A stretch of DNA of 33,812 nucleotides from an uncultured Acetobacteraceae bacterium (GTDB lineage: Bacteria > Pseudomonadota > Alphaproteobacteria > Acetobacterales > Acetobacteraceae). The first letter of the stretch is position 1. Every line of letters begins with the position of its first letter. The position numbers were made by a program, and so were the translations under genes. This document shows positions 2,281 to 26,277 of the stretch, piece by piece. Location: assembly GCA_937902425.1 (NCBI GenBank), contig CALFNB010000261.1, positions 1 to 33,812 on the forward strand, read 5' to 3'. The notes beneath the pieces are model-generated. The model was not told the origin of the DNA. It saw nothing but the letters and a program-made list of their open reading frames with translations, and did not search any database.

Positions 2281-2284
2281 CCCG

Positions 2285-3142: not shown

Positions 3143-4052
3143 ACAGTATGTCAACCGTGAGGTTGACCAGCAAATAAATCACCGCCACGAACAACAAAGT
3201 TCCCTGGATCACCGGAAAGTCGCGGCTCAGCACGGCGCCGATGACAAGCCGTCCCACACCTGGAAGCGAAAACACTTGCTCCACGACCACCGCTCCGCCG
3301 AGCAGGGAACCCGTGACGATGCCGAGCACGGTCAGGATCGGGACCAGCGCGTTGGGCAGCCCGTGCCGTGTGACAACGACGCTCCAGGGCAGGCCCTTTG
3401 AGTCCGCCGTGCGGATGAAATCCTGGCTCAGCACCTCCAGCATCGCCGAGCGGGTCATGCGGGCGATGAACCCCATCTGCACCGCGGCCAGCGTGAAGGC
3501 CGGCAACGCGAGGCCCAGAAACCAACCGGAAAAGCTTTCGGTGATTGGGACGAAACCGCCTGCCCGGAACCAATGCAGCCGGACCGCGAATGTGAAAATA
3601 AGCAACAGCCCGAGCCAGAATTCCGGGATCGACAGGCCAAGCAGTGCGACAATCATGATCGACTGGTCGGCCCAACTTCGGTGGCGCATCGCCGCCAGGA
3701 TACCGGCGATGATGCCCATCACGGCCGCGAAGATCAGCGACAGCGCGGTGAGCGACAGTGTGACCGGCAGGCGTTCGATGATCGCGGCCGAGACGCTACG
3801 ATTGAGCAGGATCGACTGGCCGAGATCGCCGTGCAGGATGCGGCCGTACCAGGCGATGATCTGCAAGTAAAATGGTTCGTCGAGACCGAGCCGGTGGCGG
3901 ATTTGCGCGAGTTGCTCCGGCGTCGCGCCGGCGTCGGCGAAAGCGGATGCGGGATCGCCCGGAACCAGCCAGATCACCGCGAACGACATCAGCGAAACCA
4001 GTGCCAGCACCGGCACCGCGATAAGCAGACGCCGAATGACGAAGCGTCGCAA
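3108..4052 (-). CDS. Peptide-type ABC transporter permease (DppB-like)
   Basis: Inner-membrane permease paired with the DppC-like protein. The N-terminus RRFVIRRLLIAVPVL, the conserved loop WLVPGDPA, and the EAA region near the C-terminus (DSKGLPWSVVVTRHGLPNAL) are typical of the DppB family. Length is 314 aa with about six membrane helices. The start codon is TTG at 4052: an in-frame TGA lies directly upstream, so nothing longer is possible, and a GGGCGGA stretch sits at ribosome-binding distance. It begins 20 bp downstream of the binding-protein gene stop, so it belongs to the same transcript. Confidence 0.9.
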   Translation of the reverse strand: MRRFVIRRLLIAVPVLALVSLMSFAVIWLVPGDPASAFADAGATPEQLAQIRHRLGLDEPFYLQIIAWYGRILHGDLGQSILLNRSVSAAIIERLPVTLSLTALSLIFAAVMGIIAGILAAMRHRSWADQSIMIVALLGLSIPEFWLGLLLIFTFAVRLHWFRAGGFVPITESFSGWFLGLALPAFTLAAVQMGFIARMTRSAMLEVLSQDFIRTADSKGLPWSVVVTRHGLPNALVPILTVLGIVTGSLLGGAVVVEQVFSLPGVGRLVIGAVLSRDFPVIQGTLLFVAVIYLLVNLTVDILYAVADPRVRLE

Positions 4053-4072
4053 TCAGTCCGCCCACTGCATGA

Positions 4073-5641: not shown

Positions 5642-5712
5642 GTGCGGTCTCCCTGGATGAAGCCCAGACGTTACGCTCGCGCGGCACGAGTAAACGATTT
5701 TTGCCTGGGCTG

Positions 5713-5740
5713 ATCGTATACACCGCCCTGACGCCGTCAA
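5713..5740 (-). promoter_or_regulatory. Candidate promoter for the minus-strand importer operon
   Basis: Read on the minus strand, TTGACG (5740-5735) is a near-perfect -35 element. After a 16 bp spacer comes TACGAT (5718-5713) as a 4/6 match to a -10 element, about 70 bp before the ATG at 5641. A short palindromic sequence (5714-5723) overlaps the -10. Assigned by eye only. Confidence 0.35.
5714..5723. promoter_or_regulatory. GntR/FCD-like operator candidate (TCGTATACAC)
   Basis: TCGTATACAC matches 8 of 10 positions of the TTGTATACAA type of operator known for many GntR-family (FCD subgroup) repressors, and has a perfect GTATAC core. It overlaps the predicted -10 of the importer promoter. 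A second such sequence, TTGTATTCAA, lies at 5802-5811. No GntR regulator gene is present in the window. Confidence 0.25.
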
Positions 5741-5801
5741 CTGAATCTCCACCGACACAGGCGCCGCATGCGGTTTTCGGAAACGGCGCTCCACCCCGAC
5801 C

Positions 5802-5811
5802 TTGTATTCAA
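5802..5811. promoter_or_regulatory. GntR/FCD-like operator candidate (TTGTATTCAA)
   Basis: TTGTATTCAA differs at one position from the palindrome TTGTATACAA. It lies about 65 bp upstream of the predicted -35 of the minus-strand importer operon. It resembles the sites at 5714-5723 and 7295-7304. A 10-mer of this kind can arise by chance, so confidence is low. Confidence 0.22.
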
Positions 5812-6105
5812 CTGTGCTTTACGATCAGTATGGTCCAAGGCATGGTGGTGGTCTGGGGGTGTCGCCTGATGGAATCGCGCGGATCGCGACGGATCGGATC
5901 GTCAACGTGTTCGCGAAGTCTGCCACTATCCGTTCCGAACCTGGCGGAACATGGGCAAGGGCGCGATCAACCTGCATGGCCATGGTCATGGCAGGCTTAA
6001 GCCGCGGCCGCGCCAGCTGGATGTTGGCGTGGACGTGTGGGACTTCCAGCCGGTTCCGTTCGCGGACCTTGCCGGGAGGACAAAGACCCGGCGCGATACC
6101 TGATC

Positions 6106-7113
6106 TCACGCAACGAGCGCGTGCACCAGGAACGGCAGACTTTCATCCATCCGGTATTCGACGCCGCTGTGATTGTCGGGGAACTCTTCATAGCGGTGCG
6201 CCACGCCAAGCTCCCGCAGGCGCCGCGCCAGCCTGCGGGCGCCATAAAGCAAATTGAACTGATCCCTTTCACCACAATCGATATACAGAGCCTTGAGGTT
6301 CCGTAGATTATCCCCCAGCGTCTCGACCGCGACCACCGGGTCGTGGCGCATCCAGTTCGCCCATCTTTCCTCGATCACCTCGCAGGTATCGAATGTGACC
6401 GGAAGTCGCATGCCCAGGAACTCAGCCGGATCCGGATCATAACTGGCCGCCATGGCGAGAATGTTCATGGTCGCAAAGGTGCCGTCGGGGCGTTTCGTTG
6501 CTTCCTCGACCTTCCGCCACCATTGCTCGATGGAATTGCCGGCTCCGGAGAGCGATCGCAGCGTGGCCGGCATATCGGGCAGGTAGCATAGCTCGAAGCC
6601 CATATCGCCCGAATGGCATGCCGCCGCCGACCAGATGTCGGAATGGCGCAGAGCATGCGTGATCGCCCCATACCCGCCGGAGCTCTTGCCATACACGCCG
6701 CGACGTCCCGCGCCGCCGCAACCGAAGCGCTGCTCGATGGCGGGCAGCATTTCCTTGATCAGGAAATCTTCCCAGGCGCCCGTGGCAGCGGAGTTGATAT
6801 ACTGGTTGCCGCCAATTCTGGTGAAACAGTCTGGGAAGGCAACGACAACCGGCGGCATGCGCTGCTCACCGATCAGTCGATCGAGGCGCTCCGGCATGTT
6901 CTCGCGGAAGGCGGCCCAATTGGTCTGGGACAGGCCGCTGCTCGTTATGCCGACCAGGTCGACAAGCAACGGCAGCCCGCGACCGTCGTGATCGGCGGGG
7001 ATATAGACATCGACCGCGCGCGCCATGGAATCCCCGAGAATATTCCCCCTCAGGACGTCGCTTTCGATGATCAGGCGGCTGACGGAGCCCATCGGTCCGA
7101 AGAACTTGCGCAT
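6106..7113 (-). CDS. Putative alpha/beta-hydrolase esterase (esterase D/PF00756-like)
   Basis: Probable serine esterase of 335 aa. The alpha/beta-hydrolase core is visible: a nucleophile elbow GKSSGG (Ser144) after RRGVY, a likely acid Asp284 in CGERDQ, and a catalytic His315 in FPDNHSG. The N-terminus has the strand pair VDVYIPADHDGRGLPLLVDL typical of the putative-esterase family. No signal peptide is seen, so it is probably cytoplasmic. The ATG at 7113 follows a GAGGGG ribosome-binding site; a TTG one codon upstream is less likely. It sits alone between two peptide-type importers and diverges from the second. This suggests, without proof, that it hydrolyses an ester among the imported compounds. 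The natural substrate cannot be read from the sequence. Confidence 0.8.
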   Translation of the reverse strand: MRKFFGPMGSVSRLIIESDVLRGNILGDSMARAVDVYIPADHDGRGLPLLVDLVGITSSGLSQTNWAAFRENMPERLDRLIGEQRMPPVVVAFPDCFTRIGGNQYINSAATGAWEDFLIKEMLPAIEQRFGCGGAGRRGVYGKSSGGYGAITHALRHSDIWSAAACHSGDMGFELCYLPDMPATLRSLSGAGNSIEQWWRKVEEATKRPDGTFATMNILAMAASYDPDPAEFLGMRLPVTFDTCEVIEERWANWMRHDPVVAVETLGDNLRNLKALYIDCGERDQFNLLYGARRLARRLRELGVAHRYEEFPDNHSGVEYRMDESLPFLVHALVA

Positions 7114-7294
7114 CAATTTTCCCCTCGATGGCCAGGATCATACCGCACCCGGGTCAGCACGGAAGACTTCGCGGCGACGCCTAACTTCGAACCGGGAAGC
7201 GTAACGATTACCGCCTCGCATGACGGGACGGGTGCCGACCGGTTGCTCCGGCGCGGGACTGTCCGTGGGATGATCACGTTCAACTGCATAATAA

Positions 7295-7304
7295 TTGTGC
7301 ACAA
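7295..7304. promoter_or_regulatory. Perfect palindrome TTGTGCACAA, candidate operator
   Basis: TTGTGCACAA is a perfect 5+5 palindrome in the divergent region. Its TTGT-N2-ACAA form is that of GntR/FCD-type operators and resembles the two sites upstream of the other importer operon. Read on the minus strand it is followed by TATTAT, a possible -10 for the esterase gene. Function is inferred only. Confidence 0.3.
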
Positions 7305-7345
7305 CCTGCGCGTATGACCCCGTCCATCAGTCATAGCCTGGGGTA

Positions 7346-7375
7346 TTGCATGTTATGTCGCCATAATCCTATGCT
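7346..7375 (+). promoter_or_regulatory. Candidate promoter for the second importer operon
   Basis: TTGCAT (7346-7351) and TATGCT (7370-7375) are separated by 18 bp and lie 45 bp upstream of the start at 7420. They fit a moderate sigma70-type promoter. Assigned by eye only. Confidence 0.3.
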
Positions 7376-7419
7376 GCATCGCACAATCGGTTGCATGCGA
7401 CAAATCAGGCGGTCTGAGC

Positions 7420-9015
7420 ATGATGAAAATGGTCTCTCTGTTCGCGGCGGCGCTCCGGGCCGCCATACTCCTCGGGTTCGCAGCCATCTGCTCGCCGATT
7501 CGTGCCGAAAGCGTGCTCAGCGTCGGCATGACCGCCGGAGACATTCCGCTCACGACCGGCAACCCGGATCAGGGTTTCGAGGGCTTCCGGTTCGTCGGCT
7601 ACAACCTGTACGATGGATTGGCGATCTGGGACCTCTCGCGCTCCGACGCGCCCTCCGACATCAAGCCTGGGCTCGCTTCCGGGTGGGAGGTCGATCCAAA
7701 CAATCATCGGCGCTGGATCTTCAAACTCCGCGAGGGCGTGAAATGGCACGATGGCTGCCCGTTCACCGCCGACGACGTACTGTGGAATTTCGCCCGTGTC
7801 ACCAACAAGGACGCGCCGCAATACTTCACGCAGCAGATGGCAATGTCCCGCACCTACGTGACCAATTTCGAATCAGCCGAAAAAATTGACGACCACACGG
7901 TCGCGATCACCACCAAGGTCGTCGAGTCGCTGTTCCCCTACTCGATGTCCTACCTGCTGATGGTCAGCCGCTGTCGCGCCGAGGCATTGAAATACGATTG
8001 GGCCGCTTACGCGAACAACCCGTCCGGGACAGGCCCGTACCGGTTCGACCGAATGGTCGCGCACGAACGGCTGGAAATGGTGCCAAACAAAGACTACTGG
8101 GATCCAAAACGAATTGCCAAACATGACCGTCTGGTGCTGCAGCCGATGCCGGAGGCCACGACCCGCGCGGCGGCGTTGATGGCCGGTCAGGTCAACTTCA
8201 TCGAGGCGCCCGCGCCCGACACGATCCCTCGCCTGAAAGCGGCGGGGATGCAAATCGTCACCAACCAATACCCGCACAACTGGCCGTATATCCTGAATTT
8301 CGTGCGCGGCCCGATGACCGATATTCGCGTCCGCCGCGCCGCCAATCACGCCCTCAATCGCGCCGAGTTCGTCGAGATGCTGGGTGGCCTCGCGACCGAG
8401 GACTACGCGACGATGCCGCCGGGCACGCCATATTACGGCAATCCGGTAAAATACGAATTCAACCAGGACAAAGCGCGGCAGTTGCTGAAGGAAGCCAACT
8501 GCGTCCCGTGCAAAATCACTCTGGCGATCTCAACCTCGGGTTCCGGCCAGATGCAGCCTCTGCCGATGAACGAGCTGGTGAAGGCGCAGCTTGAGGAGGT
8601 CGGGTTCCAGGTTGAATTAAAGGTGATGGACTGGAACTCATTGATCGAGATCGGCCGGTCGGGCGTGGCAAAATACCCGGAGATCGATGGCTATAACGGA
8701 TCGCGTGCGCTGCTCGATCCGCTTTCGGCGCTGATCAAGCCAGTGTGGAAATTGCACTGGTCGCCGGCGGGCAGCAATTGGGGACACTTCTACGATCCGG
8801 AAATCGAGGACCTCGTGGGTCAGATCCTCAATGAATTCGACGATGCGAAGCGCCTTGCCATGCTCACGAAATTGCACGAACTGGAGAGCGACCGCGCGGT
8901 GATGATCTGGGTCGTGCATGACCTCAATCCCCGTGCTCTTTCGCCGAAGCTGTCGGGTTTCGTGCAGGCGAGGAACTGGTTCCAGGACCTGACACCGATC
9001 GTGGTGCGGCAATGA
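7420..9015 (+). CDS. ABC transporter solute-binding protein, family 5 (first paralogue of second system)
   Basis: Periplasmic binding protein, 531 aa, opening the second importer operon. A Sec signal peptide spans about residues 1-29 and ends CSPIRA before ESVLSV. The mature chain shows the family 5 landmarks RRWIFKLREGVKWHDGCPFT, GTGPYRFDRM and RVRRAANHALNR. A cysteine pair (NCVPCK) is shared with the paralogue at 13662. Two tandem ATG codons (7420 and 7423) are possible starts; an AGGCGG sequence lies just upstream. The stop overlaps the start of the next permease gene (ATGA), indicating translational coupling. Confidence 0.93.
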   Translation: MMKMVSLFAAALRAAILLGFAAICSPIRAESVLSVGMTAGDIPLTTGNPDQGFEGFRFVGYNLYDGLAIWDLSRSDAPSDIKPGLASGWEVDPNNHRRWIFKLREGVKWHDGCPFTADDVLWNFARVTNKDAPQYFTQQMAMSRTYVTNFESAEKIDDHTVAITTKVVESLFPYSMSYLLMVSRCRAEALKYDWAAYANNPSGTGPYRFDRMVAHERLEMVPNKDYWDPKRIAKHDRLVLQPMPEATTRAAALMAGQVNFIEAPAPDTIPRLKAAGMQIVTNQYPHNWPYILNFVRGPMTDIRVRRAANHALNRAEFVEMLGGLATEDYATMPPGTPYYGNPVKYEFNQDKARQLLKEANCVPCKITLAISTSGSGQMQPLPMNELVKAQLEEVGFQVELKVMDWNSLIEIGRSGVAKYPEIDGYNGSRALLDPLSALIKPVWKLHWSPAGSNWGHFYDPEIEDLVGQILNEFDDAKRLAMLTKLHELESDRAVMIWVVHDLNPRALSPKLSGFVQARNWFQDLTPIVVRQ

Positions 9016-9968
9016 TCAATTACATCATCCGGAGGATTCTTTATGCGATACCGATCGCGTTCGGCGTCAGCGTGGTGTGCTTCTCCCTGGTGTACCTGGC
9101 GCCGGGCGATCCATTGCAGACCATCCTGCCGTCTGATGCCTCGGCCGAAACGATCGCCCTGGTCAAGGCCGCCTACGGCTTCGACAAGCCACTTCCCATT
9201 CAGTTCCTCAAATGGCTGGGTCACGTGCTGACCGGGGATTTCGGTGAATCGATCGCGACGCGCCGCCCGGTGATCCTGGAGGTCTCGGGCGCACTGTACA
9301 ACACGGCGACGTTGACGACGTTCGCGATCCCGATTTCGTTCACCATGGGTTACGTGATGGGCGCGATCGCCGGCTGCTTTCCCGGCCGTGTGCTCGACCG
9401 GGTCATAACAGGAACCGCCGTGTTCGGAGTCAGCCTGCCGAATTACTGGTTCGGCATCGTGCTGGTGATCATTTTCGCGGTGCAACTCATGGCACTCCCC
9501 GCGACCGGCATGGGCGGCAGTGGATCGGCCGACTTCAACGTATTCCGGTGGGCGGACGCGCGCTTCCTGATACTGCCCGTCATCACGCTCTCGATGGTGC
9601 CGATCGGAGTGATCGCCCGCACCACGCGTGCCGCGGTGGCCGAGGTGCTCAATCAGGACTTCACCATCACGCTGCGGGCCAAGGGTCTGAGCGAGTTCGC
9701 CATCGTGCGTCACGTGCTGAAGAACGCACTGCCGCAGGTGCTCGCGGTGATGGGACTGCAGTTCGGCTATCTGATGGGCGGCTCGATCCTGGTGGAGACC
9801 GTGTTCACCTGGCCGGGGAGCGGCTTCCTGCTGAGCAAAGCGATCATCAACCGCGACATTCCTGTCCTGCAAGGAACCATTCTGTTGCTGTCCTTGATTT
9901 TCGTCACCATCAACCTCGTGGTCGATCTTCTGCAATCGGTGATCGACCCACGCATTCGACGGAACTGA
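9012..9968 (+). CDS. Peptide-type ABC transporter permease (DppB-like)
   Basis: Inner-membrane channel subunit of the second importer, 318 aa. It begins INYIIRRILYAIPIAFGVSVV, followed by YLAPGDPLQ, as in DppB/OppB proteins. It has six hydrophobic segments and a cytoplasmic EAA region (RAKGLSEFAIVRHVLKNALP). The ATG overlaps the stop codon of the binding-protein gene by four bases. It is followed after 4 bp by the DppC-like gene. Confidence 0.93.
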   Translation: MINYIIRRILYAIPIAFGVSVVCFSLVYLAPGDPLQTILPSDASAETIALVKAAYGFDKPLPIQFLKWLGHVLTGDFGESIATRRPVILEVSGALYNTATLTTFAIPISFTMGYVMGAIAGCFPGRVLDRVITGTAVFGVSLPNYWFGIVLVIIFAVQLMALPATGMGGSGSADFNVFRWADARFLILPVITLSMVPIGVIARTTRAAVAEVLNQDFTITLRAKGLSEFAIVRHVLKNALPQVLAVMGLQFGYLMGGSILVETVFTWPGSGFLLSKAIINRDIPVLQGTILLLSLIFVTINLVVDLLQSVIDPRIRRN

Positions 9969-9972
9969 CATC

Positions 9973-10881
9973 ATGTCCCCGACGATTATCACGGCACCGC
10001 CGTCGTCCCACTTCGAGGAACAGGTCGCACCGGCGCTGATGGTCCGCGGCTACTGGGGAAACGTTCTCTTTCGGCTTCGGCACGACAGAGTAACCGTGTT
10101 CTTCGGCTTCATCCTGTTGCTGATCATCCTGGCCGCGATCTTCGCGCCTTTGATTGCCCCCTTTGATCCCTACAAGGAAAGCGTGATCGGACGATTGAAA
10201 CCATTCGGCTGGCGGTCCCACCCACTCGGCACCGACGAACTGGGCCGCGATCTGCTGACACGACTGATCTACGGCGGTCGAATTTCATTGCTGATGGGTG
10301 TCGTTCCGGTCTGCATCGCGACGTTGGTCGGCGGCACGCTCGGGGTGATTGGCGGCTTCGGCGGCAAACGTGTCAACACCGTGATCATGCGGACGATGGA
10401 CGTGTTTTACGCGTTTCCCTCGGTGCTGCTCGCGGTGGCGATTTCCGGTGCGATGGGCGGTGGAATCGCCAATGGCATGATCGCGTTGTCGATGGTGTTC
10501 ACACCGGCGATGTGCCGGATCGCGGAGACCGCGACCACGCAGATCAAGAATCTCGACTTCGTCGAGGCCGCGCGGGCGACGGGAGCCGGCACGTTCACGA
10601 TCCTGCGGTTTCACATTCTCGGCAACGTCCTGGGGCCGGTGTTCATCTACGCGTCCAGTCTCGTCAGTGTAGGCATTCTGCTCGCGTCCGGCTTGTCTTT
10701 TCTGGGTCTCGGGGTGAAACCGCCGACCGCCGATTGGGGACTGATGCTGAGTACGTTGCGGCAATCGATCTACATCAACCCGGAGATCTGCGCGTTGCCT
10801 GGTGTCGCGATTTTTATCACCTCGATCAGCTTCAACCTGGTCAGCGACGGAATCCGTGCGGCCATGGACGTGCGGATGTGA
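9973..10881 (+). CDS. Peptide-type ABC transporter permease (DppC-like)
   Basis: Second channel subunit, 302 aa. An N-terminal cytoplasmic tail of about 35 residues precedes the first helix (VFFGFILLLIILAAIF). The DppC hallmark HPLGTDELGRDLLTRLI is present, as is the EAA loop (VEAARATGAGTFTILRFHIL). The gene lies 4 bp after the DppB-like gene and 4 bp before the ATPase gene, so all are one transcript. Confidence 0.93.
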   Translation: MSPTIITAPPSSHFEEQVAPALMVRGYWGNVLFRLRHDRVTVFFGFILLLIILAAIFAPLIAPFDPYKESVIGRLKPFGWRSHPLGTDELGRDLLTRLIYGGRISLLMGVVPVCIATLVGGTLGVIGGFGGKRVNTVIMRTMDVFYAFPSVLLAVAISGAMGGGIANGMIALSMVFTPAMCRIAETATTQIKNLDFVEAARATGAGTFTILRFHILGNVLGPVFIYASSLVSVGILLASGLSFLGLGVKPPTADWGLMLSTLRQSIYINPEICALPGVAIFITSISFNLVSDGIRAAMDVRM

Positions 10882-10885
10882 TGCG

Positions 10886-11947
10886 ATGAACATGCTCTCC
10901 CCCATGCCACCGCCCCCGGTGCAAGATCCACGCGATCGCGGCGGACCAGCCCAACCATTGATGATCGCGCGCGATCTGAAGAAGCATTTTCCGGTGAAAT
11001 CCGGACCGAAAGGCGCCGTGGTGCGCGCCGTCGACGGGGTGTCGTTCACGCTGTTCAAAGGTGAGACCCTCGGCATTGTCGGAGAGAGCGGCTGCGGCAA
11101 ATCCACCCTTGCCCGACTGCTGCTGCATCTGATCGAACCCGACGGCGGGGAGATTGTGTTCGATGGCGATCCGGTCGCGGCGCCGCGCGGGATCACGGTC
11201 AACGCGCTGCGCCGTCAGGTGCAGATGGTGTTTCAGGATAGCTACTCGTCGCTCAATCCGCGGATGCCGGTCCGCGACTCCGTGGCGTTCGGTCCTTATG
11301 TTCACGGCAAATCACGCGCGGTCGCGCGTGAGGTCGCGCGGGAGATGCTGCTGAAGGTTGGCCTCAATCCTGACCTGTTCGGTCCGCGTTACCCGCACGA
11401 GTTATCCGGTGGTCAGAAGCAGCGCGTCAACATCGCCCGCGCGCTGGTGATCGAACCACGCATGGTCATTCTGGATGAGGCGGTGTCGGCGCTGGACAAA
11501 TCGGTTGAGGCGCAGGTGCTGAACCTGCTGCGGGCGCTTAAGGCCGGGTTCAATCTGACATATCTGTTCATCAGCCATGACCTGAATGTCGTGCGTTATA
11601 TCAGCGACCGTGTCCTGGTGATGTATCTTGGTTCCGTGGTGGAGCTTGGTCCGGTCGAGCGCATTTTCACTCGCCCGCTTCACCCGTACACGGTCGCACT
11701 GCTCGGTTCGCGGCCTTCGATGGATCCCGCTCACCGGATTGAGGAACCGCCGATCACGGGGGACCCGCCCAGTCCGATCAATCCTCCGTCGGGGTGCCGG
11801 TTTCGCACGCGATGCCCGTTCGCCGAAGCGGTTTGCGCGGCGCGTGCTCCGGTCCTCGGCGATTGGTTGGACCGGGAATCCCACGTCGCGGCCTGCCATA
11901 TTCACGATCCTGAGTCGGGACATTCGCGCGCCCATGGAGTGTCCTGA
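10886..11947 (+). CDS. Oligopeptide ABC transporter ATP-binding protein (OppF/DppF-like)
   Basis: ATPase of the second importer, 353 aa. Walker A is GESGCGKST; the signature is LSGGQKQRVNIARA, followed by Walker [14 protein letters not shown]-loop FISHDLNV and the cysteine-rich peptide-transporter tail (GCRFRTRCPF). The ATG at 10886 is 4 bp after the permease stop; a longer frame from 10802 would overlap it by 80 bp and encodes unrelated residues. Unlike the first operon, the OppF-like ATPase here precedes the OppD-like one. Confidence 0.93.
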   Translation: MNMLSPMPPPPVQDPRDRGGPAQPLMIARDLKKHFPVKSGPKGAVVRAVDGVSFTLFKGETLGIVGESGCGKSTLARLLLHLIEPDGGEIVFDGDPVAAPRGITVNALRRQVQMVFQDSYSSLNPRMPVRDSVAFGPYVHGKSRAVAREVAREMLLKVGLNPDLFGPRYPHELSGGQKQRVNIARALVIEPRMVILDEAVSALDKSVEAQVLNLLRALKAGFNLTYLFISHDLNVVRYISDRVLVMYLGSVVELGPVERIFTRPLHPYTVALLGSRPSMDPAHRIEEPPITGDPPSPINPPSGCRFRTRCPFAEAVCAARAPVLGDWLDRESHVAACHIHDPESGHSRAHGVS

Positions 11948-11948
11948 G

Positions 11949-12932
11949 ATGGTTCCGCTGGTAGAAGTAAACGACCTGACGGTACGCTTCGTGACCCGTG
12001 AGATGACCGTCCACGCGGTGAATGGCGTCACTTTTTCGGTAAGCCCAGGAGAGGTGCTGTGCATATTGGGAGAGTCGGGATCGGGCAAAAGTGTTACGTT
12101 GCGAGCATTGATGCGATTGCTTCCGCCGCGGCGCGCGCAAATCACCGGCTCAATCCGGGTGGATGGCGAAGACGTTCTCGCTCTGGATGCCAAAGGTTTG
12201 CGCCATTTGCGCGGCGGCCTCGTGTCGATGATCTTTCAGGAGCCGATGACGGCGCTCGACCCGGTCTATACGATCGGTCACCAGATTGTCGAAACGATAC
12301 GCGAACATAAGGGCGGTACGCACGCGGCTGCACGGGCGAGGGCGCTGGAACTGCTGGAACTGGTGAAAATTCCGTCGCCGGAGCGGCGGCTCGATAATTA
12401 TCCGCACGAACTGTCTGGTGGCTTGCGGCAGCGGGCGATGATCGCCATGGCGCTGTCCTGTGGGCCGCGGCTGTTACTCGCCGATGAACCGACGACGGCG
12501 CTCGATGCGACCGTGCAGATCCAGGTGCTGATCCTGCTGCGCCGGTTGCAGAAAGAACTCGGTATGGGAACGATTTTCGTGACCCACGATCTGGGCGTGG
12601 CGAGTGAGATCGCGGATCGGATCGCGGTCATGTACGCCGGCCGCATCGTTGAGGAAGGACCGGTGGCGGATGTCCTCGCCGCGCCGCTGCATCCGTACAC
12701 GCGTGGCCTGCTCGCGTCGACGGTGCATGGGCAGAGTCGTGATCACGACATCGACGCAATTCCAGGCAGCCCGCCGGATTTGCGTATCGTGCCCACCGGA
12801 TGCGCGTTCGCGCCGCGATGCGGAATGGCCATTCCGCAGTGCCGCGCCGGCATTCCGGAAGAGAGGCATCCATCGCCCGGACGCATGGCGCGCTGCATCC
12901 GCGTTGACGCGCCGGTACCCGCTTATGCCTGA
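11949..12932 (+). CDS. Oligopeptide ABC transporter ATP-binding protein (OppD/DppD-like)
   Basis: Partner ATPase of the second importer, 327 aa, with Walker [20 protein letters not shown] after the Q-loop, signature LSGGLRQRA, Walker [13 protein letters not shown]-loop FVTHDLGV and tail GCAFAPRCGM. I chose the ATG at 11949, one base after the previous stop. An in-frame ATG at 11934 (14 bp overlap) is possible because a GGAG lies between them. Reading further upstream to 11628 only covers the previous gene in another frame. Confidence 0.92.
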   Translation: MVPLVEVNDLTVRFVTREMTVHAVNGVTFSVSPGEVLCILGESGSGKSVTLRALMRLLPPRRAQITGSIRVDGEDVLALDAKGLRHLRGGLVSMIFQEPMTALDPVYTIGHQIVETIREHKGGTHAAARARALELLELVKIPSPERRLDNYPHELSGGLRQRAMIAMALSCGPRLLLADEPTTALDATVQIQVLILLRRLQKELGMGTIFVTHDLGVASEIADRIAVMYAGRIVEEGPVADVLAAPLHPYTRGLLASTVHGQSRDHDIDAIPGSPPDLRIVPTGCAFAPRCGMAIPQCRAGIPEERHPSPGRMARCIRVDAPVPAYA

Positions 12933-19774: not shown

Positions 19775-19888
19775 CAGCGGCGTTTACTCCCCAGGCGGTG
19801 GCGACGCCGCGGGTTCAGGCGGTGAGCCGGCGGGGCGTCTGGTGGTAGGCGGAAAGGGAGGGGTGGTGCAAGGGCGGCGGGTCGGCGG

Positions 19889-20092
19889 ATGCGACGTGCG
19901 ATGACGGTAATCCAGATGAGCGATCGGGAACTGATGCGGCTGACCGCACGGGCCGGCGGGATCGCGGTTGATACCGTGACGGCTTCCGCCGGCATGGCCC
20001 TCCGCGACTTGTCTTTTCGGAAGTGTTTTCCAGGTTGCTTCAAGCCCACACACGAAATGGCAAATCGCCGCCGATATTCAGCCCACCCTTAA
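19889..20092 (+). pseudogene. Possible N-terminal remnant of an ISNCY-type transposase
   Basis: A 67-codon frame starts MRRAMTVIQMSDRELMRL. From memory, MTVIQMSDREL-RL is the beginning of many ISNCY-family transposases of alphaproteobacteria, where a helix-turn-helix follows (DLADGRLTV, then AAxLMG). Here the similarity ends after about 15 residues and unrelated sequence follows, so only a stub would remain. No terminal inverted repeats were identified. Identification rests on one short motif. Confidence 0.35.
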
Positions 20093-20150
20093 AGAATTGT
20101 TAGGGTTTCGGCTCCATCATCGCGCCAGGTGGCCAGCAAAACAGGATTTC

Positions 20151-20174
20151 GGCTCTCTTGTTGTTCGGAGAGCC
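20151..20174 (+). repeat. Inverted repeat (hairpin) in the leader of the small-peptide operon
   Basis: GGCTCTC and GAGAGCC form a perfect 7 bp stem around a 10-base loop, about 90 bp before the small-peptide start. There is no T-run, so it is not a simple terminator. A second hairpin (CTTCGC/GCGAAG, 20201-20223) lies between it and the gene. They could be regulatory RNA structures. Confidence 0.4.
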
Positions 20175-20261
20175 AACCGTCCGGCGGGTCGTGACCGCAT
20201 CTTCGCCCCGTTCTGGTGCGAAGCATGCGGTTTAGTGGTGAACAAGGATACGGAGAGCAAC

Positions 20262-20429
20262 ATGGGTATGCCAGTTGGTGCTGGTCGCGGCTTCAGCGCG
20301 CCGATTTCAATGCCGGTCCGAGCGGCGGCACCTCCCCCGCCGCCACCGCCGAGCAACGCGGGCACGGCCGCGGCGCTGTTATTGAACAGCGACGGACCGC
20401 GCGGTACGAAAGTCAACACAAACGCCTGA
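20262..20429 (+). CDS. Small proline-rich protein, candidate ribosomal peptide precursor
   Basis: A 55-residue protein I do not recognise. The ATG at 20262 has a strong, well-spaced ribosome-binding site (GGAG, 6 bp away); a longer frame from 20097 lacks one. The N-terminal part is glycine/alanine-rich with basic residues (Arg9, Arg20). The middle has seven consecutive prolines (24-30). The C-terminal part runs SNAGTAAALLLNSDGPRG and ends with Thr49, Lys50 and two Asn-containing dipeptides. There is no cysteine, no Glu and a single Asp (Asp44). No signal peptide or membrane helix is present. It heads a run of genes for WD40, flavin reductase-like, SUMF1-like and ATP-grasp proteins, and a terminator-like hairpin follows its stop. 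That is the layout of a highly expressed substrate peptide with its modifying enzymes. The function is inferred only from this context. Confidence 0.6.
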   Translation: MGMPVGAGRGFSAPISMPVRAAAPPPPPPPSNAGTAAALLLNSDGPRGTKVNTNA

Positions 20430-20433
20430 GACA

Positions 20434-20477
20434 GGCCGGAGCCAGCGCCGCGCCGCGGTCTGGCTCCGGCCAATTTT
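20434..20477 (+). terminator. Strong hairpin with T-run right after the small-peptide gene (attenuating terminator)
   Basis: GGCCGGAGCCAG (20434-20445) and CTGGCTCCGGCC (20460-20471) form a perfect 12 bp stem with a 14-base loop, followed directly by AATTTT. This is a standard intrinsic-terminator shape. It begins five bases after the stop codon of the small gene and about 23 bases before the WD40 start. Partial termination here would give much more small-peptide mRNA than enzyme mRNA. Confidence 0.75.
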
Positions 20478-20499
20478 CCCGATTGCCGGAAAGTCCTGC

Positions 20500-22188
20500 A
20501 TGATCATGCCCAGCATGAAGCATTGGGGACCGATCGCGGGCATCGCCGCGTCGGGAGCCTATGTCGCGACCGCCGGATACGACAATCAGTTGATCCTGTG
20601 GAACGCCGCCAGCAAACGCGCGCTCGCGCGCAGCCTGCACGATCACCTGATCAATCATTGCGCCTTCAACGACGATGGCACGCTGATCGCGACCGCCAGC
20701 AGCGATTATTCGGCGCGCATCTGGGATGTGCCGTCCTTGCGCCTGCGCGCCGCGTTGATCGGGCATGAGGACGACGTCGATATGGCGGTGTTTTCCCCCG
20801 ACGGACTGCGGATCGCCACCTGCGCGCTCGATCGCACGATCCGCGTTTGGGACCTGTCCGGCCATTGTTCGAACGTCCTGCGCGGGCATACCGGAAACAT
20901 CCTGTCAGTCGCCTGGACCCGCGATGGCACCCGCCTGGTCTCATCGGGAGTCGATGGCACGGTTCGGGTCTGGGACGCGGCCTCGGGTGACGAACTTGAC
21001 CGCACGGACCTGGCGGTCCGCACCGACACGATCGCGATCGCCAGCGATGGCCGCATTCTCGCGGGCGACGATCTGGGGCGGATCGCCCTGATCGTCCATG
21101 GCGTCGTCCGCTTCACCGAGGCGCACCGCGCCGGGATCAAGCATGTTTCATTCGATGAGGCGTCGGGGACGCTCGTGACCCTCAGCTACGACCGCACGAT
21201 CGCGATCTGGTCGGTGGGCAAGGCAGACGAAATCCATGAACTCGCCCGCGCCTCTCTGCCCGCTCAGGTCTGGCCGCGGGCGGCGGTCCTGCTCCGCCCA
21301 GGGCTGGTGGCGATGGGAACCTTCGGATCGAGCTACGCGGTGTTCGACTGGGCCGCCAACCGGTGGGATCTGGATTGGGTCGAACCCGATCTCAGTCTGA
21401 ACGCGGTCGCCATCATGGATGGGGCACGGTATGCGATCGGCGACGCGGGTGTCCTGTTCCGCGACGGCGAACCCGCCGCGAACCTGGGAGAGTTGTGCAA
21501 TTTCCTGCTCCCGGCAGGGGGGCGCCTGCTGACCGGGGGGCAGATGGGCAGCCTGCACGACGCCAGGACCGGGGAGACGCTTTACCAGCATCATTCGCCG
21601 CTGAATTGCGGCGCCTGCTTCTGGCGCGACGGCACGCCGCACGCGGTTATCGGCACCTATACCGGCGAGGCGCTGATCTTCGCGCTGGAGGATGACGGCC
21701 CGCCGCGCCTGGTGACGGTTCTGAAGATTTTCGAGAACGCCATCAAAGGCCTGGTCGCGACGGCCGGGCGGATCTTTTCCGTCTGCGCCTCGACCGATAT
21801 CGCCTGGCACGACACGGACGACTTCCGGCTGATCCGCCTCGTTCCCAGGGCGCACGAGAAAATCGCCAATGGCTGTAGCCTGGCCGGTCCCACCGGCTTC
21901 GCGAGCATCGGACGGGATCTGAAATTGCGAATCTGGACCGGCAATCATGAGGATGTCTACCAGACGCCGCATCCGAACTCGGTCAAATGCATCTGCGCCA
22001 GCGATGACCGGGAAACGCTGATGACCGGCGCCTATACCGGCACGCTGGCGGGTTTCGACATGGCTTCGCGACGCTGGATTTCGTTTACCCGCCCCACGGC
22101 ATCGGGGATTTCCGGCCTGGCCTATGACGGCGGAAACCGGCGGTTCCTGGCCAGCTCTTACGACGGACATATCTATGCCGCCGCGTGA
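20500..22188 (+). CDS. WD40-repeat beta-propeller protein
   Basis: Protein of 562 aa made of WD40 repeats without a signal peptide, so probably a cytoplasmic scaffold. The best repeats in the first half end in ARIWDV, IRVWDL, VRVWDA and IAIWSV, each preceded by a DGT/DG turn and a GH or H dipeptide (for example GHEDDVDMAVFSPDG, GHTGNILSVAWTRDG). The second half has degenerate repeats (DLKLRIWTG, GTLAGFD near the end). The length would fit two seven-bladed propellers. The ATG at 20500 was taken; ATG 20506 is an alternative. The stop lies inside the next gene (14 bp overlap). WD40 proteins usually hold partners together; here the likely partners are the three downstream enzymes and perhaps the small peptide (inference). 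Confidence 0.85.
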   Translation: MIMPSMKHWGPIAGIAASGAYVATAGYDNQLILWNAASKRALARSLHDHLINHCAFNDDGTLIATASSDYSARIWDVPSLRLRAALIGHEDDVDMAVFSPDGLRIATCALDRTIRVWDLSGHCSNVLRGHTGNILSVAWTRDGTRLVSSGVDGTVRVWDAASGDELDRTDLAVRTDTIAIASDGRILAGDDLGRIALIVHGVVRFTEAHRAGIKHVSFDEASGTLVTLSYDRTIAIWSVGKADEIHELARASLPAQVWPRAAVLLRPGLVAMGTFGSSYAVFDWAANRWDLDWVEPDLSLNAVAIMDGARYAIGDAGVLFRDGEPAANLGELCNFLLPAGGRLLTGGQMGSLHDARTGETLYQHHSPLNCGACFWRDGTPHAVIGTYTGEALIFALEDDGPPRLVTVLKIFENAIKGLVATAGRIFSVCASTDIAWHDTDDFRLIRLVPRAHEKIANGCSLAGPTGFASIGRDLKLRIWTGNHEDVYQTPHPNSVKCICASDDRETLMTGAYTGTLAGFDMASRRWISFTRPTASGISGLAYDGGNRRFLASSYDGHIYAAA

Positions 22189-22792
22189 GTCCGGCCTACC
22201 CAGACTGCTGCTGTTCCCCGGCAGCCTGCGCCGGGACGCATATCAGCGGCGGTTGATCGAGTATTTTCTGACGCTGATCGGGGACCGGTGCGAGCCAGAT
22301 ATGTTGGTGGCCGATCTTCCCTTGTTCGATCAGGACCTGGAGCAGGATGCCGGGGTGATCGAGCGGGTCGCGGCGCTGCACCGGCGCTGCGTGGCGGCGG
22401 ACGGGTTCATCGTCGCGTCGCCGGAATATAACGGCCACGTCTCGCCCTATGTGAAGAACACCGTGGACTGGGTTTCGCGCCTGGCCCGGGTCGACGCGCG
22501 CTTCGCGGACGCCCGCCCCTTCCGCGGCAAGCCGTTGCTGCTCGCCTGCGCCTCGACCGGATGGACCGGCGGGCTTCTGGGCCTGCGGGACGCGCGGACC
22601 TTGTTTGGCTATCTCGGATGCCTTGTGCAAGCCGACCAAATTTGCGTGTCCGACGCCGCGCACTGGGCTTCCGAGGGACCGTTCCGCTTCGAACCGGCGT
22701 TCGCGGACCATATCGCGAGCACGTTGCTCGATTTCTGCCGTCTGGCGGCCGCCTTGAAAACCAGGGACTCCGACAATGGATCATTTGCCTGA
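22175..22792 (+). CDS. NAD(P)H-dependent FMN reductase-like flavoprotein
   Basis: Flavodoxin-fold protein of 205 aa. The phosphate-binding loop FPGSLRRDAYQRRL (residues 14-27) and the signature SPEYNGHVSPYVKNTVDWVSR region (82-102) identify the NADPH-dependent FMN reductase family (PF03358). It probably binds FMN and reduces it or a small substrate with NAD(P)H in the cytoplasm. The ATG at 22175 overlaps the WD40 stop by 14 bp and the gene overlaps the following one by 17 bp, indicating translational coupling. Within this operon it may supply reduced flavin or itself act on a peptide (inference). The start is chosen because the domain begins nine residues later; a longer frame to 22124 would lie inside the WD40 gene. 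Confidence 0.86.
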   Translation: MPPRESGLPRLLLFPGSLRRDAYQRRLIEYFLTLIGDRCEPDMLVADLPLFDQDLEQDAGVIERVAALHRRCVAADGFIVASPEYNGHVSPYVKNTVDWVSRLARVDARFADARPFRGKPLLLACASTGWTGGLLGLRDARTLFGYLGCLVQADQICVSDAAHWASEGPFRFEPAFADHIASTLLDFCRLAAALKTRDSDNGSFA

Positions 22793-23804
22793 ACAATCCC
22801 GGCCCGGATATCACTGGCCGATTTTCGATCGGATTTTGTGCGGAACGATGACGGACCGGGAACGGCTTGGCCTGCCGGATCGTTTCGTCGATCCGCGCTT
22901 CGCCGAAACGTTTCCCGCCGTGCTCAATCAACTGCGCGGCATCGGCGTCACCGCCCTGGCTATCATGTGCGAAGACCCGGGGCAGTCTTTGACGGATCGT
23001 TTCGCGGCCGGTCAGATGCTCGCCCTGCTCGGTGACCCGCGGATCAACACACTTGATCCCACCGTCATCGCGCTGCCCGGCGGACCGGTGGAGATCGGGC
23101 TCGATCCCGGCGATTTGGAACGGGTGATGCGGAGCCTGTCCGGACTCGGGCTCGACCGGTCGTGGATCGCCAAGGAATGCCCCCGGCACGCGGTTGAACT
23201 GCGATCATACGCGATCGGAAAATATCCCGTCACGAACCAGGAATATCGGGACTTTCTACTGGCGACCGGCCATTCGTGCATACCTGACAGCTGGCATTTC
23301 CGCCGGTTCCCCCGGGAACGGTCCAATCACCCAGTGTATACCGTCAGTCCCACGGACGCGGATGCCTATGCCGCCTGGCTGGCGCGGACGACGGGACGGC
23401 GGTTCCGCCTGCCCACGGAGGCCGAATGGGAGTTCGCCGCCGCCGGCTTCGAGGGTCTGGAGTTTCCCTGGGGTCAGACGTTCGAGCCTGATCGCGCCAA
23501 TACCGCCGAGACAGGCCTGTTTCAGTCGAGTCCCGTAGGCATCTTCGTTGCGGGTAACTCGCCTTTTGGCGTAACGGACATGGCCGGCAACGTAGAGGAG
23601 TATGTCTCCGGGCTCTATTCCGCTTATCCGGGCGGAGCCTGGGTCAGCGATCATCTGGTGGAGATAAACGGCGCCTACCGCGTCGCACGCGGCGGCGGGT
23701 TCGCGCGATTCCGGGACCTGGCGAGGACGCGGCGGCGGCACGGCGGCAACCCGCGCTCCGCGACCTATACGATGGGGTTCCGTCTGGCCGAGGATATCGG
23801 CTGA
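22776..23804 (+). CDS. SUMF1/formylglycine-generating-enzyme-fold protein lacking the catalytic cysteines
   Basis: Protein of 342 aa. Residues ~1-95 are a helical extension, with RFAAGQMLALLGDPRI at its end, a pattern often found before SUMF1 domains. Residues ~96-340 form the FGE-sulfatase fold: ALPGGPVEIG, IGKYPVTNQEYRDFL, FRLPTEAEWEFAAAG, DMAGNVEEYV, RVARGGGF and MGFRLAED are the familiar landmarks. In true formylglycine-generating enzymes two copper-binding cysteines follow the GG-S-[FY] segment; here the equivalent positions are Arg311 and Ala316. So it is unlikely to make formylglycine. Members of this fold also serve as substrate-binding or oxidative domains (as in EgtB). It overlaps both neighbours: 17 bp with the flavoprotein gene and TGATG with the ATP-grasp gene. 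Confidence 0.86.
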   Translation: MDHLPEQSRPGYHWPIFDRILCGTMTDRERLGLPDRFVDPRFAETFPAVLNQLRGIGVTALAIMCEDPGQSLTDRFAAGQMLALLGDPRINTLDPTVIALPGGPVEIGLDPGDLERVMRSLSGLGLDRSWIAKECPRHAVELRSYAIGKYPVTNQEYRDFLLATGHSCIPDSWHFRRFPRERSNHPVYTVSPTDADAYAAWLARTTGRRFRLPTEAEWEFAAAGFEGLEFPWGQTFEPDRANTAETGLFQSSPVGIFVAGNSPFGVTDMAGNVEEYVSGLYSAYPGGAWVSDHLVEINGAYRVARGGGFARFRDLARTRRRHGGNPRSATYTMGFRLAEDIG

Positions 23805-25042
23805 TGGGGCATATCTTGTTGCTCGAAGTCCCTGGCGGCAACGATTTCACGGTGCTGGAGGACGCGGTGGCGATGGGCCACCAGGTGACCTTCTTCACCG
23901 GCGATACCTCCCAATATGAAGCCCAGGGAGAGAGGACCCGCTTGTGTCTCGGGATGGCACGGGAGGTGGTGGAGGTCCGCCCGTTCAATTATCCGGCGCT
24001 GGAACGTGCGGCACTGGAGATCCACGCCCGTCTTCCGTTCGACGCGATTCTCTGCATTCTCGATATTCGCATGATTGAGGCGAGCGATCTGGCCGCGAAG
24101 CTGGGTTTGCGTTTCCTGAATCCCGCGACCACGCGGATGGCGCGCGATAAGGTCGCGGTGCGGGAGGCCCTGGCGCGGGCCGGGGTTCGGCAGCCGCGCT
24201 TCGCCCGCGCCGACACGATGGAGGATCTGCGCAGTGCCGTCGCCGAGGTTGGATACCCGGCTCTGGTGAAGCCCTCCGATGGATATGGGTCGCAGAACGT
24301 TTGCTTGCTGCGAACCGAGTCCGATCTGACCGCGGCTTTGGCGAACATGCCGCGCGCGCCCGCGGATTATGGCCTGGGCGTCCACGCGAGCAACCGATTT
24401 TCGGTCGAACAATATGTTCAGGGTGCGATGATCGGCTGCGACGTCTTTTCCAACATCGATGACCGTGTGCTTCTGGGCATCAACGACAAGTTGATGTTCC
24501 CGCCACCGTCTTTCGCGATGCGCGGCAGTTGCTTTCCGTCGGACCGCCATGACACCGCCGCTATTCGCGACTATGCGTTTCGGGTCCTGGACGCGATCGG
24601 CTTCGATTTTGGTGCATCCCACATCGAAATGATCGTCGCCGCGGATGGTCCCTGTCTGGTCGAGGTCAATCCTCGCCTGGTCAGTGCGCAAATTCCATTT
24701 CAGATGGGCTATGCGCTGGAGAGGTCGATCTACGCTGATCTGATCAACCTTCATCTGGGTCTGCCATTGACAGAATTGCACGCGCTTCAACCGAGTTGGT
24801 TCAGTGCCATCCGCTGGATCGTGGCGGACCGGCCGGGTGTGCTTCACTCGGTGGAGATACCCGAACCGCTCGATCCCGCGGTACGGCGCGTGGTGCTGTT
24901 CAAGGAACCGGGCGATGCCGTTCATCCTCCGGTGAACAACGGCGATCGCATCGGATATGTCATCGCTGTCGGAAACAGTGAGGCAGGGGCTGAGGAAATC
25001 GCGAACCGCTTCGTTCGGACAAGTTGCGTATATTTGCGGTAG
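23804..25042 (+). CDS. ATP-grasp domain ligase
   Basis: Carboxylate-amine (or carboxylate-alcohol) ligase of 412 aa. An N-terminal pre-ATP-grasp domain (GHILLLEVPGGNDFTVLEDA) is followed by the ATP-grasp fold. Lys156 and the glycine-rich loop lie in YPALVKPSDGYGSQNV, the adenine-binding hinge in SVEQYVQG (Glu202), and magnesium ligands in HIEMIV (Glu275) and CLVEVNPRL (Glu287, Asn289). The C-terminal ~80 residues form a further domain as in BacD-type amino-acid ligases. Enzymes of this type activate a carboxylate as acyl phosphate and join it to an amine or hydroxyl. The start ATG shares bases with the previous stop (TGATG). It is the last gene of the operon and probably the enzyme acting on the small peptide or on a metabolite attached to it (inference). 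Confidence 0.9.
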   Translation: MGHILLLEVPGGNDFTVLEDAVAMGHQVTFFTGDTSQYEAQGERTRLCLGMAREVVEVRPFNYPALERAALEIHARLPFDAILCILDIRMIEASDLAAKLGLRFLNPATTRMARDKVAVREALARAGVRQPRFARADTMEDLRSAVAEVGYPALVKPSDGYGSQNVCLLRTESDLTAALANMPRAPADYGLGVHASNRFSVEQYVQGAMIGCDVFSNIDDRVLLGINDKLMFPPPSFAMRGSCFPSDRHDTAAIRDYAFRVLDAIGFDFGASHIEMIVAADGPCLVEVNPRLVSAQIPFQMGYALERSIYADLINLHLGLPLTELHALQPSWFSAIRWIVADRPGVLHSVEIPEPLDPAVRRVVLFKEPGDAVHPPVNNGDRIGYVIAVGNSEAGAEEIANRFVRTSCVYLR

Positions 25043-25293
25043 CCTCGTCGTCAGATGGCCTGACTTCTGACCATGCCCGGTGTACCGCCCGCGGTTGTTC
25101 TGTTTGCCGATCGTACCTCTGGGCAAGCCGCCCCGTACCGCGAATGATGTCGGGCTTGCGCGCCGCTGGTGCGGACTCCAGCTCTGGAGTCCTCCCGGAG
25201 TGGCCCAGGCGCCGTGCCACCAGGCGAAAAACGCTCTTCAGTATCATGCGTGAGACAGGGGCCCTTCAATACCGCACCTGTTCCTGGCCAACC
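25043..25293. other. Convergent intergenic region
   Basis: This 251 bp region lies between the converging ATP-grasp and pyruvyl transferase genes. It contains a perfect inverted repeat (25173-25192) but no gene I can support; short frames on both strands lack any family resemblance. Confidence 0.5.
25173..25192. repeat. Perfect inverted repeat between convergent genes
   Basis: GGACTCCAG and CTGGAGTCC form a 9 bp stem with only two bases between. It lies between two convergent transcripts, where a bidirectional terminator would be expected, but there is no T-run on either side. It could be a Rho-independent-like pause site or a protein-binding palindrome. Confidence 0.4.
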
Positions 25294-26277
25294 TCAGTAG
25301 ACCGAGGTCCGCGCCAGGTCGGTCAGCGACATTTGAACCAACCCACTCACGCCCCGCGCATCCTGGCCACAGTCCCCACCGGCCCGCGGCCAACCCCGCA
25401 TCGGCGACCGCCGCAACGCCTCAATCGCCTCCAGCATCCGTGACTGCGCTTCATCCAGCAGCGCGCTTCGCGACAACCGCGGCTCCACCTGAGCGACCGT
25501 GCGCAACCCCGAGGCCGCCCGGTCAACATACCGTTCCCGCGCGAAGCCCCGCAGCCACGCGGCCTGCCGGAGCAGCACCTTCCTGCCCATGTGGAAACGC
25601 GACAAATGCGTGAGATGCGCCTGCTCCAGCGCGGTCGACGGCGGCAGCGCGCGGAACGCGATATCCAGATCGAGGGTTTCCGCCCAGTCGATCCATTTCG
25701 GACGGTGTATGGGGGCCAGCGGCCGGATCGCGATCCAGGGCACCCGCAGCGCGTCGGCCACGATGATACCGTGCAAGGCCTCGCTGATCAGCACGCGGCA
25801 TCTGCCGATGGCGGCGATCACCGCCAGCGGATCGTCGCGTGGATCGATCAAGGTGACGCCGGCGCGCGCCGACACGTCCTGCCAGGCGCCGCGGACGGCA
25901 CTTTCAAAATGCGGCATGAAGCCGATGTCACGACTTTCGCGCGCCGGCGTCAGTCCGGCCAGCGGCAGCAAAGACGCCGGATCGCCGATGCCCATCGCGG
26001 CCGGCAGGCCCAGAAGCCGCGCCGTGCGTCTGCCGCGCACCCAATGCATAACCCAGGTCTCGTCGAGCGCGATCCGTGGTTGATATCCGCCATAACCCGA
26101 ACCCGCCACCACCTTCCTCACCTTCGGATCGTGACGATCGTCGAGGATTGAGCCGATGCCGAGGAATTGCGTGTCCGCGTTCCGGTCGAAGAAGTCGGGC
26201 AGTAATCTGGGCCACAGCAGACCGTTCAACTCGTCGCCGAAATTCCGATGCGATCCGCGCCATTGGTAAAGGATCAC
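25294..26277 (-). CDS. Polysaccharide pyruvyl transferase family protein
   Basis: Enzyme of 327 aa resembling the polysaccharide pyruvyl transferase family (PF04230, ExoV-like), which adds pyruvate ketals to sugars of exopolysaccharides. Visible landmarks are NFGDELNGLLWPRLL near the N-terminus, FLGIGSIL, and ISEALHGIIVADALRVPWIAI, the conserved S-x-x-HG helix. A C-terminal ~90-residue tail is not conserved. The start is GTG at 26277, overlapping the TGA stop of the upstream glycosyltransferase gene as GTGA. It is therefore in the same transcript and probably modifies the same glycan. Confidence 0.82.
   Translation of the reverse strand: MILYQWRGSHRNFGDELNGLLWPRLLPDFFDRNADTQFLGIGSILDDRHDPKVRKVVAGSGYGGYQPRIALDETWVMHWVRGRRTARLLGLPAAMGIGDPASLLPLAGLTPARESRDIGFMPHFESAVRGAWQDVSARAGVTLIDPRDDPLAVIAAIGRCRVLISEALHGIIVADALRVPWIAIRPLAPIHRPKWIDWAETLDLDIAFRALPPSTALEQAHLTHLSRFHMGRKVLLRQAAWLRGFARERYVDRAASGLRTVAQVEPRLSRSALLDEAQSRMLEAIEALRRSPMRGWPRAGGDCGQDARGVSGLVQMSLTDLARTSVY

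Follow-up and report, generated by a model that had tools for sequence, protein, structure and literature searches.

What is made by a rare bacterial operon that sets the gene of a 55-residue peptide ahead of genes for a WD40 protein, a flavin reductase, a SUMF1-fold protein and an ATP-grasp ligase? The question is raised by positions 20,262 to 25,042 of a 33,812-nucleotide stretch of DNA from an uncultured Acetobacteraceae bacterium (assembly GCA_937902425.1, contig CALFNB010000261.1), the whole of which is called the window below. An earlier note on this DNA took the small protein for a substrate, the WD40 protein for a scaffold and the remaining proteins for tailoring enzymes, and knew of no described class with this gene set. 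The comparison of the locus with its relatives, at the level of sequence, showed that the peptide travels with the ATP-grasp ligase, usually with the flavin mononucleotide (FMN) reductase and, in seven of 11 genomes, with a WD40 protein resembling ToxC of toxoflavin synthesis. The gene set appears to tie azapteridine-type enzymes to a ribosomal peptide and a putative amide-forming ligase. We tentatively propose that the proteins of the operon carry out azapteridine-type (toxoflavin-like) chemistry in a form that depends on the peptide, which would serve as scaffold or acceptor for the ligase; the earlier interpretation is partly supported.

The peptide gene and its operon

The peptide, encoded at 20262..20429 (+), begins with MGMPV, contains a proline run and ends in GPRGTKVNTNA, both ends being conserved in its relatives; no Pfam or NCBIfam model matched it. 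To judge from these relatives the 55-residue open reading frame is a genuine gene, because a full-length counterpart with 62.5% identity stands at the same place in locus L005, because the nonsynonymous substitution rate (dN) was below the synonymous rate (dS) in every pair computed by the NG86 method, and because 1,355,530 Markov-shuffled bases yielded no reading frame of the peptide pattern. The dN and dS values were 0.25 and 1.57 for window/L005, 0.23 and 1.11 for window/L044, 0.033 and 0.26 for L005/L044, 0.28 and 0.87 for L011/L057, and 0.56 and 2.81 for window/L008. With YN00 the gap for L011/L057 was slight (0.38 against 0.47), and the window/L008 pair was not computable.

The peptide was sought in the ligase-bearing genomes and by a pattern scan of the collected loci. 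Relatives were found by tblastn in L005, L008 and L011, with a weaker match in L006, where the gene starts at 9427, and the peptide of genome G1212 was recovered in the same way. That of G696 was found with a profile built from five rows excluding G696, and the full gene was then read. The peptide of G1018 is a fragment at a contig edge comprising the last 31 residues, and that of G695 stands ahead of the ToxC and ToxD genes on a contig other than that of the ligase. The eight full peptides have 54-61 residues, an MGM start, I or V at position 5, a variable middle rich in Pro and Ala, and a C-terminal motif resembling GxxGTx[LV]NxxA, in which G1212 has H for N and from which G692 departs by ending in NVK. 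The pattern M[GD]M...[LVI][NH]xx[AV] matched only these peptides in 105 sequences (616 kb, many overlapping), and no plasmid matched the L011 peptide at E <= 10.

The other four genes follow on the plus strand and code for a 562-residue WD40 protein (20500..22188; Pfam WD40, 1.1e-38), an NADPH-dependent FMN reductase family protein (22175..22792; FMN_red PF03358, 5.5e-27), a 342-residue FGE-sulfatase/SUMF1-fold protein (22776..23804; FGE-sulfatase, 1.9e-45) and a 412-residue ATP-grasp ligase with an L-amino acid ligase C-terminal domain (23804..25042; LAL_C2 PF18603, 1.8e-16, and ATP-grasp domains). An in-frame ATG at 20515 agrees better with the relatives of the WD40 protein than the start at 20500, and for the reductase the ATG at 22175 was chosen, the longest reading frame beginning at 22124. 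With the chosen starts the overlaps amount to 14, 17 and 1 bp, and the reading frame coordinates thus bear out five genes on one strand, the last four overlapping by 1-17 bp, as had been claimed.

The spacer of 70 bp between the peptide and WD40 genes contains a hairpin (20434..20471, +), lying 3' of the peptide stop codon and 5' of the ToxC-like gene. Its 17-pair stem has a minimum free energy of -41.8 kcal/mol (z -4.29; none of 200 shuffles was as stable). The stretch from the peptide to the next gene was folded in seven of the nine peptide loci, L011 and L057 being left out, and a hairpin was predicted in all seven; it was well beyond the shuffles in three (window, L103 with z -6.71 and L006 with z -2.86) and near them in four (L005, -1.55; L008, -1.32; L044, -0.66; L055, -0.24). 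We infer a possible attenuator or RNA-processing site. An RNA element at the operon was rejected, since Rfam gave no match within 19775-25300 up to E 1; at gathering cut-offs the only Rfam hits in ten sources (140,032 bases) were two tRNAs. On the plus strand a scan for the sigma-70 consensus revealed nothing resembling a promoter.

Orthologs of the ATP-grasp ligase were found in 11 genomes (G000, G691, G692, G693, G694, G695, G696, G697, G1018, G1091 and G1212). The named carriers, all of them metagenome bins, are Rhizobiales, Rhodopseudomonas, Ferrovum and unplaced Proteobacteria, and the genome of the window is 89% complete. A contig scan with the ligase, which reaches close relatives only, gave 37 pattern matches and seven confirmed loci. 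Whole-genome searches returned one genome of 299 in the order, one of 398 in the phylum and one of 248 in the family of G694, in each case only that of the window or the centre genome, while two of 120, three of 149 and two of 32 genomes in three other families added G1018, G1091 and G1212. Six plasmid records of ATP-grasp proteins with 26-31% identity were considered and set aside as not orthologous.

The peptide is present in nine of the 11 genomes, the contig-edge fragment of G1018 included, so that a small protein bound to these enzymes, as the earlier note had supposed, is supported. It shares a contig with the ligase in seven (G000, G691, G692, G694, G697, G1018 and G1212), and in G696 the two lie on separate contigs, both broken inside the same operon. 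A ToxC-like gene was seen in seven genomes and the peptide accompanies it in every one, five times directly before it and twice with the ligase and ToxD genes on either side; the absence or lack of conservation of the short reading frame, named earlier as a ground for giving the idea up, is therefore not what was found. An MGM start occurs in nine of the 11 genomes when the long proteins of G1091, described below, are counted, the start of the G1018 peptide lying off its contig. An FMN reductase stands near the ligase or the peptide in eight genomes. A ToxD ortholog was found in six, all among the seven with ToxC; the seventh is G696, where ToxC is present and the contigs break at the place expected for ToxD. 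ToxD is not the core of the set, because four of the 11 genomes are without it. The four enzymes do not form a fixed set, ToxD not being found in five of 11 genomes (one of them, G696, owing to the assembly gap) and FMN reductase not being seen in three of 11 stretches.

Several neighbouring genes were recorded. Large TPR proteins with a C-terminus resembling glycosyltransferases by eye lie upstream of the ligase in L057 (6214-8868) and L056 (3058-5589), the TPR and ligase genes of L057 being seven bases apart. Uptake genes of the NMT1/THI5-type ATP-binding cassette (ABC) family occur near the ligase in L006 (4632-5822), L008 (5815-6900) and L007 (1-1940); the binding proteins of L006 and L008 are 54% identical, and L007 holds a C-terminal piece of a binding protein with an ABC ATPase and a permease. 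Such uptake was rejected as a core part, being found in three of 11 genomes, and no ligand is named for its closest relative of known structure. The window itself carries, outside the operon, two oligopeptide-type ABC transporter sets with solute-binding proteins, recognized by eye (287-5794 and 7420-12932).

The enzymes and their relatives

The SUMF1-like protein is, by sequence comparison, a homolog of ToxD. Its profile matched PDB entry 7spq, deposited as 'Serine/threonine kinase ToxD', with E 6.6e-126 and 423 bits over positions 25-340 of 341, the next matches being far weaker (CalU17 at 9.6e-31, followed by EgtB, SUMF2, FGE and PvdO). At the place of the catalytic Cys pair of FGE, aligned by eye, the window reads RGGGFARFRDLARTRRRHG, so the pair is not kept. 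A conflict-system reading, with WD40 and FGE-sulfatase proteins as effectors, was dropped in view of the 423-bit ToxD match, and what had been taken for an anonymous tailoring enzyme has acquired a name.

The same holds for the supposed scaffold. Along 99% of its length the WD40 protein aligns with WD40 genes adjoining ToxD-like genes on plasmids, with 45-54% identity to those of six toxoflavin-type loci and 26% to that of a seventh (L067), and a passage of PMC9040811 assigns ToxC to COG2319 and ToxD to COG1262. Many residues of the ToxC-like and ToxD-like pairs are invariant across the peptide and toxoflavin types. On these alignments the WD40 protein is ToxC-like. Its AlphaFold2 (AF2) model is all-beta, with a predicted local distance difference test score (pLDDT) of 90.8, and the protein is taken as a double beta-propeller; the model matched generic double propellers at template modelling (TM) scores of 0.50 or less and offered no catalytic hint.

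Five of the seven comparison loci (L064-L068) came from plasmids and two (L069 and L070) from genomes, through a ToxD profile that matched three of 349 genomes, one of them that of the window. A GTP cyclohydrolase II gene is present in all seven and a RibD-like gene in five. The ToxD-like gene of L065, on a Streptomyces plasmid, is in pieces in different frames (9725-10508). For GTP cyclohydrolase II (ToxB) and the RibD-like protein (ToxE) no match at E <= 1e-3 was obtained in the window or in the other ATP-grasp stretches (3.2-19 kb each), nor any at E <= 1 in L103. An Azospirillum methyltransferase used as the ToxA-like query matched none of the ATP-grasp loci, and matched only two of the seven toxoflavin-type loci. 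In the ToxC tree seven peptide-type and seven toxoflavin-type sequences separate at 100/100, the branch of L067 being very long; six peptide-type ToxD sequences group at 97/97 against six others in a tree of that protein. The peptide-type set therefore looks like a long-standing lineage with a gene complement of its own and not a decayed toxoflavin operon. The ligase tree separates genomes with and without ToxC/ToxD only weakly (68/76).

The ATP-grasp protein is of the L-amino acid ligase type and is predicted to form amide bonds, which agrees with the earlier view of it as a bond-forming ligase. Its nearest relative by sequence (9.8e-22) and by fold (TM 0.82-0.83) is the L-amino acid ligase BL00235 (3vot); the model has a pLDDT of 89.3, and identity over structural alignments to L-amino acid ligases is 16-19%. 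The nearest solved relatives of the FMN reductase are YieF, then the azoreductase YhdA and chromate reductases, and its PEYNG motif is invariant in seven rows.

Possible roles of the peptide

How could these parts work together? In the proposed scheme the peptide would be made in excess of the enzymes, because of the hairpin after its stop codon, and would form the scaffold on which the ATP-grasp ligase makes an amide bond. The site would most likely be the N-terminus, at Gly2 after removal of Met, and less likely the conserved C-terminal carboxylate. The N-terminus is favoured because the MGM start is common to longer proteins adjoining the ligase in two genomes; the C-terminus is as conserved as the N-terminus in the short peptides, which recalls carrier proteins such as LysW. 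The FMN reductase would supply reduced flavin or reduce an intermediate, and ToxC and ToxD may carry out an oxidative coupling like that proposed for toxoflavin, in which glycine is attached to an aminouracil from riboflavin synthesis and an N-N bond is formed. This aminouracil would be drawn from the riboflavin pathway of the cell itself, because the locus is without dedicated ToxB and ToxE genes. The pathway would yield either a peptide bearing a pyrimidine-derived group or a small molecule freed from the peptide. Because ligase and peptide occur together in genomes where ToxD was not found, ligation may be a more general step than coupling. As to the coupling, one sentence of a 2025 preprint (PMC12154649) presents ToxC as a proposed family of N-N-forming oxidases for toxoflavin, and a passage on pseudoiodinine (PMC9911603) proposes that PsdE and/or PsdC join aminouracil and glycine with N-N bond formation.

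The longer proteins (242-283 residues, of low complexity, some rich in His, with an M[GD]MRI[QH]GG start) lie in L056 at 5650-6378, 6587-7387 and 9536-10294 (-) and in L006 at 6899-7750; the latter gave no Pfam match over the cut-off. Genome G1091 has three around its FMN reductase and ligase genes, starting MGMRIHGGG, MGMRIQGGS and MDMRIQGGG, and G692 has one in addition to a short peptide, so that three of the four adjoining the ligase start with MGM and one with MDM.

Several observations weigh against this scheme. Because L-amino acid ligases of known structure couple amino acids in free form, the ligase may use a substrate other than the peptide. The peptide has no split into leader and core and lacks a conserved Cys, Ser, Thr, Lys or acidic core; it is known here from its gene, its modification and the site of this being inferred. 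The MGM start shared by short and long proteins may have another cause, because long homologs without a ligase begin differently: in the four read of the six genomes concerned the start is MALDIGSG or MALEIGSG. A second long copy in G692 begins MGWSVSGA, and a ligase-specific N-terminus of the long proteins is weakened accordingly. ToxC was identified through the WD40 genes at toxoflavin-type loci and the COG2319 listing, and PsdC and PsdE are likened to ToxC and ToxD by their proposed role. The absence of ToxB and ToxE covers mostly short stretches around the loci, and either gene may be located outside them. The whole genomes of G692, G693, G694 and G1091 gave no ToxD, while ToxC was sought there in the locus stretches only, and FMN reductase was not seen in the locus stretches of G697, G1212 and G693. 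Short peptides are also not universal. G1091 shows long MGM proteins only, and none was seen in G693, whose contig ends just after the ligase gene; such absences are weak, as the profile search missed the G695 peptide later found on the ToxD contig.

An alternative is that the peptide is a small partner or an exported protein and that the enzymes make a small molecule not attached to it, such as a dipeptide or a conjugate of an azapteridine with an amino acid. L-amino acid ligases are indeed the nearest solved ligases in both sequence and fold, homologs of the long MGM proteins occur in six genomes without the ligase, and the two ends of the peptide loosely resemble those of a YjfB-like small protein of G694 (L059, 1456-1662; MDMS...GIGGNLDVSA). 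We nevertheless hold this to be unlikely, for the short peptide is linked with the ligase and ToxC/ToxD even away from the ligase in G695, and a Pfam scan of five peptides gave no YjfB match (none to PF14070 at E <= 10, HMMER filters dropping most weak matches). Kinship with YjfB was rejected: a search of eight genomes yielded a weak, sub-threshold match in G694 (23.5 bits) and another in G691 at E 0.85.

Somewhat more doubtful is a classical ribosomally synthesized and post-translationally modified peptide (RiPP), which the enzymes would tailor and which would be cut and set free in bioactive form, with the WD40 protein merely as scaffold. A small gene does head an enzyme operon, with ribosome-binding sites recognized by eye ahead of it, and is present in nine of 11 ligase genomes. 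Conserved ends around a low-complexity middle are, however, the reverse of a leader followed by a variable core, a layout that some RiPP classes also lack; no protease or exporter is found among the five genes, and the WD40 and SUMF1 proteins are related to proteins of small-molecule synthesis.

It is tempting to speculate that the peptide replaces free glycine altogether, its Gly, exposed by removal of Met, being coupled by ToxC and ToxD to the aminouracil in a reaction that forms an N-N bond, and a covalent flavin-like (pyrimidotriazine) redox group borne by the peptide being finished by the ligase and the FMN reductase. We regard this as improbable; if true, it would establish a new class of cofactor or natural product, one borne by a peptide. 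Lower still in our estimate stands a carrier after the manner of LysW and LysX, with an amino acid added by the ATP-grasp enzyme to the C-terminal carboxylate, processed while bound and cleaved off, since peptides of 54-61 residues whose ends lie at a constant distance from a conserved motif, eight of nine C-termini seen ending in Ala, a flexible Pro/Ala middle and an ATP-grasp partner are set against the NVK end in G692, the lack of a short peptide in G1091, the missing features of LysW itself and the absence of a releasing peptidase among the five genes.

The preferred reading, a peptide-dependent variant of toxoflavin-like chemistry, would if true link azapteridine-type chemistry to ribosomal peptides. 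The literature searches returned no description of this gene set or of such a link; the earlier claim that no described class has the set stands in so far as the full set was not found there, and fails in so far as half of it belongs to toxoflavin-type synthesis. In the literature searched the mechanism of ToxC and ToxD is only proposed, and the peptide clusters may offer a separate handle on it, as a peptide lends itself to cutting, to mutation and to tracing by its mass.

Comparison with known systems

The ligase shares the ATP-grasp fold and the C-terminal domain of the L-amino acid ligases BL00235 (3vot), BacD (3vmm) and RizA (4wd3), and differs from them in its 16-19% identity and in being tied to a ribosomal peptide gene. 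Pheganomycin synthesis by PGM1 likewise unites an ATP-grasp enzyme with a small peptide gene and makes an N-terminal ligation conceivable; the likeness is one of gene arrangement, and the window adds ToxC/ToxD and the FMN reductase. LysW, which works with LysX and ArgX, is a small carrier protein of similar length with a conserved C-terminus and an ATP-grasp partner. It has Zn-binding Cys residues and a C-terminal EDWGE, whereas neither Cys nor EDWGE occurs in any of the eight full peptides, and the LysX-type structure 1uc8 matched the ligase profile weakly (8.9e-6).

The plasmid pLDW-31 of Halobacillus litoralis (L067) combines ToxD-like and WD40 proteins with an NADPH-dependent FMN reductase, as the window does. 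Its toxoflavin-type cluster (1-8957) also includes a DUF692 multinuclear iron protein, a second WD40 protein, an aldo/keto reductase and a pyridoxal phosphate enzyme. It differs from the window in having GTP cyclohydrolase II, in a WD40 protein only 26% identical, and in showing no MGM peptide by pattern and no match of the window ATP-grasp. With the toxoflavin operon toxABCDE the window has in common the ToxD homolog and its ToxC-like WD40 partner; in place of ToxB and ToxE its locus holds the peptide, the FMN reductase and the ATP-grasp ligase, and its ToxC and ToxD belong to tree groups of their own.

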